This document shows positions 4,110-29,489 of a DNA stretch of 47,204 nucleotides, piece by piece. A model generated the notes under the pieces. The model saw only the letters and a program-made list of their open reading frames with translations, made no database searches and had not been told where the DNA came from. The position numbers and the translations under genes are program-made. The stretch's first letter is position 1. Each line of letters starts with the position of its first letter. Origin of the DNA: a virus; IMG/VR virus record IMGVR_UViG_3300035698_007038, positions 1 through 47,204 of that record; one strand, written 5' to 3'.

Positions 4110-4183
4110 CGCGGAGTGGTAAAGTAGCATTACGCGGGGCTCATAACCCCGAAGCCCGGGTGCAATTCCCGGCTCCGCTACCA
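4110..4183 (+). tRNA. Initiator-type tRNA-Met (anticodon CAT)
   Basis: Cloverleaf by eye: acceptor CGCGGAG (4110-4116) with CTCCGCT (4173-4179), so 1-72 is a C-U mismatch and 2-7 pair perfectly; A73 and encoded CCA (4180-4183). D-stem GTAA/TTAC with a 7-nt loop lacking the usual GG. Anticodon stem CGGGG/CCCCG (4135-4139, 4147-4151) around loop CTCATAA. T-stem CCGGG/CCCGG with loop TGCAATT, so position 55 is G rather than T. The unpaired 1-72 and the run of G-C pairs at the bottom of the anticodon stem are hallmarks of bacterial initiator tRNA. An elongator Met or lysidine-Ile tRNA is the alternative. The missing D-loop GG together with the altered T55 is odd, as these normally contact each other. 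Confidence 0.8.
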
Positions 4184-4188
4184 ACAAC

Positions 4189-4280
4189 GGGGCTGTTATA
4201 GAAAGAGGTAGTCCATGTGTTCTAAAGAGATACGTGGGATCAACTACCTAACGGTGGTGCAAATCCACCCAGCTCCATCA
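4189..4280 (+). ncRNA. tRNA-like element with tmRNA-type ends
   Basis: Starts 5 nt after the tRNA. The acceptor-like stem GGGGCTG (4189-4195) pairs with CAGCTCC (4270-4276), including a G3-U70 wobble, the alanine identity pair and the same ends as bacterial tmRNA. The discriminator is A, but the tail is TCA rather than CCA. A T-arm GGTGG-TGCAAAT-CCACC (4253-4269) has the same TGC loop as the neighbouring tRNA. There is no recognisable D-arm. The middle is a 7-bp helix AGGTAGT/ACTACCT (4206-4212, 4243-4249) enclosing CCATGTG/TACGTGG. It looks like the tRNA-like domain of tmRNA with helix P2 but without a tag frame. A degenerate tRNA with an insertion is an alternative. Confidence 0.5.
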
Positions 4281-4299
4281 TATGAGTATACATGTGATT

Positions 4300-4690
4300 A
4301 AAGAATTAATCTTAGGAGAAGATTCCTAAGTACTGAATTTGAGTCAGTGTGGCCATTAAGTCGTGCATTGAGGAATTTCGCTACTTTAGGACATTGACTC
4401 AACCTAACATAAGACTTGCTCCTCGGAGCATGAAACTCGGAAGTGAACGTTCCGTCGAGTATAAGAAAGTAGAGGCGTTTATTAAGACCCATGGAGCGTG
4501 TTTCACGTGTAGAAATGGGCGGTTACTGGAGCGGTGCTACGGAAATTCGAAACCGGTTTACCGGCACTATGTAGAAGGAACTGGCGCCGTATGGTAAGGA
4601 AACCCACTGCCTAACCCTGCGTTAGGAGGAGAGCGACACCTGCTCAGAAAGCAAGTGGTGTGACTAGGCGCGGGAGAGACCGTAGCCCTT
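4300..4690 (+). ncRNA. Candidate structured noncoding RNA of unknown class
   Basis: About 400 nt between the tRNA-like element and the next gene, with no credible coding frame but many stems. CTTAGGA/TCCTAAG (4311-4330). A 12-bp helix 4339-4350 with 4391-4402 (one G-U). TGCTC-CTCG-GAGCA (4417-4430). CGGAA/TTCCG at about 4437-4453. CCTAAC-CCTGC-GTTAGG (4610-4626). ACACC-TGCT/AGCA-GGTGT (4636-4661). GCTACG (4536-4541) could pair with CGTAGC (4681-4686) over a long range. Large structured RNAs beside phage tRNAs are known (for example GOLLD), but no match to a named class can be claimed. RNase P, group I and group II intron cores were looked for and not found. Confidence 0.5.
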
Positions 4691-4713
4691 AATTAAAAAA
4701 TAAAAAGGATACG

Positions 4714-27863: not shown

Positions 27864-29489
27864 TCAGTCTATGTCCTCACCATAGTCCGTAACAATCGCG
27901 GCCTCAGTGGTCAACAATAACGTCGCAACACTAGCGGCGTTTTTTAATGCTTCCTTGACTACCTTAACGGGATCGATCACCCCTGCTTCTACTAGATTCT
28001 CGTACTGTCCTGAGGCAGCGTTGAATCCTGTCTCCACATGGGCAGCATCCGTTGTCTGCTGAATAACTAACGTTGGCTCATATCCAGCGTTTTTTGCTAT
28101 CTGCGCTAAGGGAGATGCTAATGCTCGACTCACTATATTAATACCCGCACGTTCAGATGAGTTAGATCCTTTCATATCTTTCAGGAGACTGATGGCCTTG
28201 ACGTATAAGGTACCTCCTCCAGGCACGATACCGCTCTCTGCGGCTGCCTGTACGGCGAATACAGCATCATCAATGCGGTCCTTAGACTCTCTCATCTCAA
28301 GCTCTGTAGAGCCTCCCGCACGTATTACAGCAATTCCTCCTAGGAGCTTAGAAATACGACCCTTCAGGTATGGTATCGCCTTAGCTGCGGCGGGTACATC
28401 TTTAATCTTATCCATAAAGTCATTGATCTGAGAAATCCTATTCTTAATGGTCTTCTTCTTACCTGCACCCCCAACAATTGTTGTATCTTGCCTAGTAACA
28501 ATAACTCGTTTTGCTTGTCCTAAATGCTCCAGCTTACATGACCTAGCATCTACTCCAGTATGGTGTCCTAGAACAGTGGCTCCTGTCAGTGCCGCTAAAT
28601 CTTTAGCTAACTCCGTACCATCCTCTTCGAATCCCATAGGAAAAGCAGTAGCACATACTTTAATAGATCCTTGCATATTATTTATAGCTAAAGTATTAAT
28701 AACTTCTGGTTCGTAAGAGTCAACCAGTAATAATAAAGGCCTGCCTGTGGAGGCCACCTCATTCAAAATATCTACTAGTTCGTGTATAGTATGCAGCTTG
28801 TAATCAATTAACATGACGTAGGCATCTTCATACTCTACCTTCATGTGACGTTGGTTGGTAACGAAATACGGAGAGGCATATCCCTCATCGTACCTCAGTC
28901 CTTCTACGTATTCTATGGTAGTGTCTGCCTGCCTGCCCATTTCAACGGTGATGGCTGCCTCGGCTCCTAACTTAAATTTAGCAGTGGCAATCATCTCGCC
29001 CAGAACTTTGTCCGAATTAGATGAAATTGTAGCGACGTGGGTCAACTCTTTCTTAGTGTTGCAGGGCTTGGCCTGATCATCCATAAAAGATTGTACCTTC
29101 TCTACTGCCTTGTCTATTCCCTTGGTGACGTGTACTACATTGTTGCCTGCCGCAATCGCTTTCTTACCCTCATTGAATATGGCACGAGCCAGTACCGTAG
29201 CTGTGGTGGTTCCGTCACCAGCAATTTCAGCAGTCCGCTGCGCCGCCTGACGTACCATCTGTGCTCCGATGTTCTCGAATGGGTCCTTTAGTCTGCGTAT
29301 AGATTTAGCTACCGTGACTCCATCCTTGGTCACCGCAAAGGCATTAGGTCCTGGCTCAAAGGCGACGTGTCTACCGCCGGGTCCTAGTGTGGCCTGTACT
29401 GCGTCGGCCAATAAGTTAATGCCCTTGGATATTTTCTCGCGAGCAGCTTCGTCAAACTTGACTACTTGATGTGGTTGTTTATTACTCAT
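27864..29489 (-). CDS. groEL: GroEL chaperonin (phage-encoded)
   Basis: 541 aa, full length for the family (E. coli 548). Landmarks: ATLGPGGRHV at about 33-42, TKDGVTVAKSI at about 54-64 (Asp of the ATP site), GDGTTT at 91-96, EGYASPYFVTNQ in the apical GroES- and substrate-binding region, RIDDAVFAVQAAAESGIVPGGG near 395-415 with the catalytic Asp. The C-terminus ends TDYGEDID and lacks the bacterial GGM tail. It should form a 14-mer folding chamber with the phage GroES at 9145. Its ATGA start overlaps the exonuclease stop. The last gene of the minus block. Confidence 0.95.
   Translation of the reverse strand: MSNKQPHQVVKFDEAAREKISKGINLLADAVQATLGPGGRHVAFEPGPNAFAVTKDGVTVAKSIRRLKDPFENIGAQMVRQAAQRTAEIAGDGTTTATVLARAIFNEGKKAIAAGNNVVHVTKGIDKAVEKVQSFMDDQAKPCNTKKELTHVATISSNSDKVLGEMIATAKFKLGAEAAITVEMGRQADTTIEYVEGLRYDEGYASPYFVTNQRHMKVEYEDAYVMLIDYKLHTIHELVDILNEVASTGRPLLLLVDSYEPEVINTLAINNMQGSIKVCATAFPMGFEEDGTELAKDLAALTGATVLGHHTGVDARSCKLEHLGQAKRVIVTRQDTTIVGGAGKKKTIKNRISQINDFMDKIKDVPAAAKAIPYLKGRISKLLGGIAVIRAGGSTELEMRESKDRIDDAVFAVQAAAESGIVPGGGTLYVKAISLLKDMKGSNSSERAGINIVSRALASPLAQIAKNAGYEPTLVIQQTTDAAHVETGFNAASGQYENLVEAGVIDPVKVVKEALKNAASVATLLLTTEAAIVTDYGEDID

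Follow-up and report, generated by a model that had tools for sequence, protein, structure and literature searches.

A probable tag-less tmRNA of the tRNA-like-domain-only kind beside a viral tRNA-Met gene, and its relatives in viral contigs

Introduction

Does the short structured stretch that follows a tRNA-Met gene in a viral genome encode a tmRNA reduced to its tRNA-like domain, and what might such an RNA do to ribosome rescue in the host? The stretch lies in the viral record IMGVR_UViG_3300035698_007038, which is 47,204 bases long and is called the window below. A preliminary description had read it as a mini tmRNA-like element that could mimic or sequester alanyl-tRNA synthetase (AlaRS), SmpB or EF-Tu, or act as a decoy for ribosome rescue. 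G3-U70 is the main identity element of AlaRS, and the tRNA-like domain (TLD) of tmRNA is the part to which SmpB binds. The TLD-only tmRNA of the DS6A type is said, by papers that cite it, to go back to a report of Mao and colleagues in 2009.

According to excerpts of two papers, the tmRNA of Mycobacterium phage DS6A is little more than a TLD without a tag, and a molecule like it strongly inhibited E. coli tmRNA whether or not it could be charged, perhaps through titration of SmpB (PMC4131195, PMC11915505). Excerpts on a tmRNA database of 2025 give 79 phage tmRNAs and nine 'Standard, no CDS' sequences (PMC11915505), and those of a further survey give ARAGORN tmRNAs in 402 of 18,146 phage genomes (PMC9004378). 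No report of a broad viral family of tag-less tmRNAs was found in excerpts of the open-licence literature.

Results

The element and its locus

Among the window proteins that were scanned are both terminase subunits (small and large), portal, capsid, endolysin, DNA polymerase, helicase, primase and GroEL; the GroEL-type chaperonin is encoded at 27864-29489 on the minus strand (phrog_5725, E 6e-137). The order at the locus is small ORFs, tRNA-Met (CAT), the mini element, about 400 nt without an evident gene, and the terminase genes. Features are listed in Table 1.

Table 1. Features of the tRNA-Met and mini-tmRNA locus in the window (all on the plus strand).
Feature	Position	Strand	Basis and remarks
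tRNA-Met (CAT), encoded CCA	4110..4183	+	ARAGORN; Rfam RF00005 56.2 bits; directly upstream of the mini; same neighbour in L002
5-nt spacer ACAAC	4184..4188	+	Sequence; L002 equivalent TTTAT, also 5 nt
Probable TLD-only, tmRNA-like RNA (mini-tmRNA), 89 nt from G1 to A73	4189..4277	+	Fold; R2 model; homologue L002 1873-1956
Acceptor 5' strand GGGGCUG, with G3 of G3-U70	4189..4195	+	Sequence, fold
D-loop analogue, UUAUAGAAAG, with no D stem; most relatives carry GG in place of its AG	4196..4205	+	Sequence, fold
P2-like helix (4206-4212/4243-4249) and stacked inner helix (within 4213-4237)	4206..4249	+	Fold; three compensatory pairs against L002
T arm GGUGG-UGCAAAU-CCACC (pairs 4253-4257/4265-4269)	4253..4269	+	Fold, R2; two compensatory pairs against L002
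Acceptor 3' strand CAGCUCC (with U70) and discriminator A73	4270..4277	+	Sequence, fold

The minimum free energy fold of the window mini consists of an acceptor, 10 unpaired nucleotides where a D arm would be, a 7-bp helix with an inner helix, and a T arm. Its energy is -35.9 kcal/mol, where shuffled sequences average -21.87 (z -4.18), and none of 200 shuffles equalled it. The ends GGGGCTG and CAGCTCC, assigned by the preliminary description to tmRNA and tRNA-Ala, pair at 7 of 7 positions (4189-4195 with 4270-4276) and include the AlaRS identity pair G3-U70. The presence of a T arm, the absence of a D arm and the stacking of P2-like helices instead of an anticodon arm, all claimed there as well, were reproduced by this fold, in which the P2-like and inner helices stand where a tRNA has its anticodon arm and tmRNA its entire mRNA-like domain. 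Both ends of the TLD fall within one 89-nt RNA that has room for none of mRNA-like domain, tag frame and pseudoknots, and the ATG frame from 4215 continues through the T arm and acceptor, in agreement with the earlier statement that there is no tag frame. A73 is followed at 4278-4280 by UCA, not CCA. The UUCGAC D-loop motif (GG..UUCGAC of tmRNA) is absent from the window mini. ARAGORN called the neighbouring tRNA-Met and nothing else at the locus, and no Rfam family reached its cut-off at the mini.

Relatives in the same position

A search with TerL yielded 77 loci, of which only L002 (75% identity) and L003 (73%) were close. L002 has the order tRNA-Met (1794-1867), 5 nt, mini (1873-1956, followed by CCA), a homologue of the downstream noncoding stretch, a small ORF and the terminases, and is the one syntenic homologue found for the window mini. 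Its acceptor is GGGGGCG/CGCCTCC, with G3-U70 kept, and the D and anticodon arms are missing from both elements. Every pair of the acceptor, P2 and T stem is formed in both elements; seven pairs are changed on both sides (two in the acceptor, three in P2, two in the T stem) and no pair of the three helices is broken, so that the compensatory changes for which a search in relatives had been proposed were observed. The fold of the L002 mini has z -2.99 (1 of 200 shuffles as good). Its D-loop (AUUAAAUCGAU) carries a partial tmRNA motif, UCGA, and as CAUUAAAUCGAUGAAGG resembles GAUUAGACUCGACUAUC of the viral mini L108. The window mini is taken to be more than a chance fold because its L002 homologue occurs at the same place with compensatory changes, and because a covariance model lacking both sequences finds both at full length.

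In L003 the downstream stretch is present, no tRNA was called and no mini was seen. In L004 (TerL 46%) no tRNA was called either, and neither element was seen in the part examined. Comparison of the 981-bp region of the window with a phage collection by blastn gave no match, a portal search of genome contigs gave no further relatives, and alignment searches gave few. The start of L081 (TerL 55%; ...CCACCTCCACCA, where the contig begins) was not readable as a mini or a tRNA and was set aside; its positions 1-40 start inside a sequence that ends ACCTCCACCA, upstream of the same small ORF, and are perhaps the tail of a tRNA-like gene.

Minis in viral contigs

Two patterns were scanned. Scan 1 combined a long acceptor-to-T-arm spacing with a fixed acceptor (GGGGCTG ... 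CAGCTCCA) and left one T-loop letter free (G or T). It matched at least 119 stretches of viral contigs, with 66 unique sequences among the matches listed; most of the RNAs are 79-81 nt long, and those with GG-UUUCGAC look like two tmRNA ends joined by P2 and a small hairpin. Scan 2 placed no constraint on the acceptor and used GGTTTCGAC, a gap of 28-50 nt, and GGAC with the T arm. It matched at least 120 viral-contig stretches; 126 matches were reduced to 84 unique elements, and the 12 at loci already in scan 1 were left out, so that 72 were counted. Among the matches listed, 71 of these 72 unique elements show G3-U70 within a 7-bp acceptor that is paired throughout, with 24 different stems represented (the remaining one was read in another register), and an encoded ACCA follows the element in 14 of 72. 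Across the viral family lengths range from 77 to 108 nt.

Alignment A8 was fitted to the structure of the model, and its counts lean towards that structure; with this understood, 97.2% of cells were paired in 88 model-fitted minis against 68.2% in shuffled ones, two-sided changes occurred at 20 of 22 pairs, and the covariation score was 0.698 against 0.142 when shuffled and at most 0.092 when slid by 1-3 columns. Invariance of the acceptor is argued from scan 2 only, because part of the A8 rows come from the scan in which the acceptor was fixed.

Among the unique sequences of scan 1 in the matches listed, a T-loop UUC went with a D-loop GG in 61 of 61 elements, and UGC went with the lack of GG (AG) in 5 of 5, which represent two sequence types. 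The window mini, which has UGC and AG, obeys this elbow rule and was not used in deriving it. The adjoining tRNA-Met (4110-4183) has a UGC T-loop and AG for GG in its D-loop, apparently the same elbow swap. The UUCGAC motif is also missing from some minis of the pattern scans, for example L101 and L107, and a pattern for minis of the window type (ARAAAG with a UGC loop) had no matches.

A distinct branch is marked by D-loops of the GGAAAGCCCG type and by P2 arms that are longer and variable (81-105 nt; L106, L117, L137, L141, L149, L162, L168, L187 and L197), several of its members being from one metagenome, 3300042934.

Most of 91 genome-contig matches to the acceptor pattern were unlike minis. 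Actinobacterial matches of 85-89 nt appear to be the 3' ends of full-size tmRNAs that happen to have a GGGGCTG upstream (as checked in L213 and L247, with tmRNAs of 369 and 372 nt). L275 is itself a complete tmRNA, and further matches are genes for tRNA-Ala. Two genome-contig elements, L265 and L267, pass RF00023 at mini length, and L211 is mini-like by model R2 (48.4 bits) and below the cut-off of Rfam. Four Lokiarchaeota matches (L217, L226, L268, L285) look like genes for tRNA-Ala in which a segment has been inserted or rearranged in an unusual way (about 100 nt).

Scores against mini, tRNA and tmRNA models

Covariance models were built from 14 minis (R1) and from 88 minis with the window and L002 excluded (R2). 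R1 gave the window 22.9 bits and missed L002 at E 10. R2 found both at full length in 68,892 bases (window 31.1 bits, E 2.6e-5; L002 37.7 bits, E 6.2e-7). The tRNA model RF00005 gave the window mini 21.3 bits (cut-off 29) and left its D and anticodon arms unaligned, so that an ordinary tRNA, the fold that was to count against the first reading, was not a better fit. In the tRNA-Ala gene L169 5188-5259 the two scores stand in reverse order (R2 32.0, Rfam tRNA 55.1; window, R2 31.1, tRNA 21.3), so that for the window mini the pair of scores favours the mini model.

R2 scores of bacterial tRNA-Ala genes (33-42 bits) overlap those of the window and L002, and in 23 control loci with 118 ARAGORN tRNAs two tRNA-Ala genes reached 34.3 and 32.0 bits. 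The tmRNA model RF00023 gave the L002 mini 28.8 bits (E 1.3e-9; both model ends aligned, 1-374, with the middle deleted; cut-off 47), and Rfam prefers tmRNA to tRNA there, yet below cut-off; tRNA-sized stretches of about 76 nt reach up to 32.7 bits under the same model. Neither R2 nor RF00023 alone decides for the window or L002, because tRNA-Ala genes and tRNA-sized stretches score alike. The search with a tmRNA model that had been put forward as a check went against the first reading for the window itself: its record had no RF00023 match at E 0.001, and the gathering score of 47 bits was reached by neither the window nor L002.

Fifty records were searched with RF00023, 48 with a mini (L002 included) together with those of the window and L003. 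Matches were found in 47 and passed the cut-off in 33; none spanned more than 115 nt of DNA, and a full-length tmRNA was not detected in any of these 50 records. SmpB (PF01668) was detected in 0 of 50 records, many of them fragments, and in 10 of 14 control genomes. With no phage SmpB detected and the RF00023 matches so short, the minis would have to rely on host factors.

Genomic context and isolates

In 191 mini loci a tRNA was present in at least 34 and lay within 200 nt in at least 25, both being lower bounds on short stretches. Neighbouring tRNAs are common for viral minis and are not the rule; minis also sit in tRNA arrays or beside a capsid gene. R2 detected minis (62-85 bits) in six isolates, the Streptomyces phages LuckySocke, pSt2308, BRock and Alone3, Stenotrophomonas virus Jojan60 and Pontimonas phage phiPsal1. 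RF00023 was passed by five of the six and failed by Alone3, and no tmRNA annotation was present at the minis in the regions shown. A seventh isolate, GiJojo, had a blastn match only. Control phages included Gordonia phage Sixama with a whole tmRNA (L396) and one with a permuted tmRNA (L395).

ARAGORN called a tmRNA at 1 of 191 mini loci, and minis may have been overlooked for this reason. Its 324-nt tmRNA at L343 5905-6228 (minus strand) shares one end with a mini and is probably that end joined to neighbouring sequence.

The downstream stretch

A stretch of about 330-430 nt without an evident gene is common to the window (4281-4710), L002 (about 1960-2283) and L003 (about 497-830), with the conserved blocks GAGNCAGNGUGG and GAAACC-S-GU...GGCAC...UGUAG. 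It had no match in Rfam, and its single-sequence fold had a z of only -1.27. In the consensus, two-sided changes were seen at 16 of 37 predicted pairs, many of which do not form in one of the three phages. A large-RNA pattern matched the contigs of L002 and L003 only, and a stricter version matched none. The stretch is possibly a new large phage RNA adjoining the terminase genes.

Discussion

The L002 element is very probably a derived TLD-only tmRNA and the window element probably one too, an identity in which we place good confidence. The term 'mini tmRNA-like' is supported by the UCGA kept in L002, by G3-U70 in 71 of 72 elements of the viral family and by covariation; the loss of UUCGAC from the window mini and the overlap of its scores with tRNA-Ala tell against it, and the preliminary interpretation as a whole is partly supported.

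The window mini shares with tmRNA (RF00023) a G3-U70 acceptor, a T arm, a P2-like helix and the lack of a D stem, and differs from it in having no mRNA-like domain, tag or pseudoknots. With tRNA-Ala it shares G3-U70, A73, a 7-bp acceptor and a T arm, but it has neither D arm nor anticodon arm and stays below the cut-off of the tRNA model. The DS6A tmRNA, likened here by excerpts of its published description, is also phage-encoded, TLD-only and tagless; compared with that description, the window mini lacks UUCGAC and carries the AG/UGC elbow swap. Tagless mitochondrial tmRNAs and those of Mallomonadaceae plastids are, in the excerpts at hand, likewise reduced to the tRNA-like part or frameless (PMC11915505); likened by description, they differ in being organellar and, in mitochondria, usually permuted. 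As a kind, the TLD-only phage tmRNA is already known from DS6A, and the window mini is a divergent member.

The 5-nt spacer in both the window and L002 is what would be expected if tRNA-processing enzymes cut tRNA and mini from one precursor, and such cutting would free the mini. Host AlaRS could then charge it with alanine through G3-U70; that the window mini is chargeable seems likely from its acceptor, a shade less so than its identity. Host SmpB and EF-Tu.GTP would bind the charged mini, which would compete with host tmRNA. Because the mini has no template for a tag, trans-translation would be blocked or diverted to a tagless event, and incomplete phage proteins might not receive a degradation mark, or a rescue-dependent host response might be blunted. 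We put the chances of this explanation as a whole, an alanine-charged phage TLD-only tmRNA bound to SmpB and EF-Tu and competing with host tmRNA, at about even, and a net effect as a decoy is given the same even weight. The inhibition of tmRNA described for a DS6A-like molecule (PMC4131195, PMC11915505) is a published precedent for such a function.

The main feature for which a pure SmpB sponge would have no use is the strongly retained G3-U70 pair, and this retention bears on active rescue without a tag, in which the charged mini and host SmpB would enter stalled ribosomes, take the nascent chain onto alanine and allow recycling, with benefit, for example, late in infection if host tmRNA runs short. 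A sponge need not be chargeable, judging by excerpts of the E. coli work (PMC4131195), and excerpts on tagless mitochondrial tmRNAs state that these persist together with SmpB, their authors suggesting a continued helping role on incomplete mRNAs (PMC11915505). A TLD-only molecule is, however, described in the excerpts as inhibiting tmRNA in E. coli (PMC4131195, PMC11915505), and there is no obvious route to termination without a stop codon; rescue of this kind is rated unlikely, at roughly one chance in four. The same 5-nt spacer, and the downstream stretch immediately adjoining in both window and L002, would also suit a processing device whose fold recruits RNase P and RNase Z to release tRNA-Met and the 5' end of the noncoding stretch of about 400 nt. 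L003 has that stretch with neither tRNA nor mini, though, viral minis occur in other settings too, and G3-U70 would be left unexplained; a processing device is rated improbable.

A functionless, degenerate tRNA-Ala is held to be just as improbable. The G3-U70 pair is found in tRNA-Ala too, and tRNA-Ala scores under R2 overlap, but seven compensatory changes without a broken pair and an intact T arm and acceptor are opposed to decay, as are the lack of D and anticodon arms in both sequences and the UCGA of L002. The 3' end of ssrA is carried by phages that use this gene as their integration site, as is probably the case in Mycobacterium phage Shandong1, where a 29-nt match to a tmRNA 3' end lies beside an integrase gene and looks attP-like. 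That the window mini is such an attP piece, derived from a host tmRNA gene and serving integration, is very improbable indeed: the mini contains the two ends of the domain, 5' as well as 3', and no integrase was found among 20 window proteins scanned with PHROGs.

Returning to competition with host tmRNA, we propose tentatively, and at somewhat less than even weight, that tag-less mini-tmRNAs are a widespread and mostly unannotated phage weapon, chargeable and strongly selected, that would seize SmpB and stalled ribosomes and switch off or rewire trans-translation. The window mini would then stand for a divergent branch that has lost UUCGAC and remodelled its elbow contact (A18/G55 for G18/U55). 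Whether phages use RNA to block or bypass bacterial ribosome rescue becomes a testable question, because at least 119 and at least 120 viral stretches with near-invariant AlaRS identity and covarying helices can now be set against the one phage example and nine database sequences given in excerpts of earlier work.
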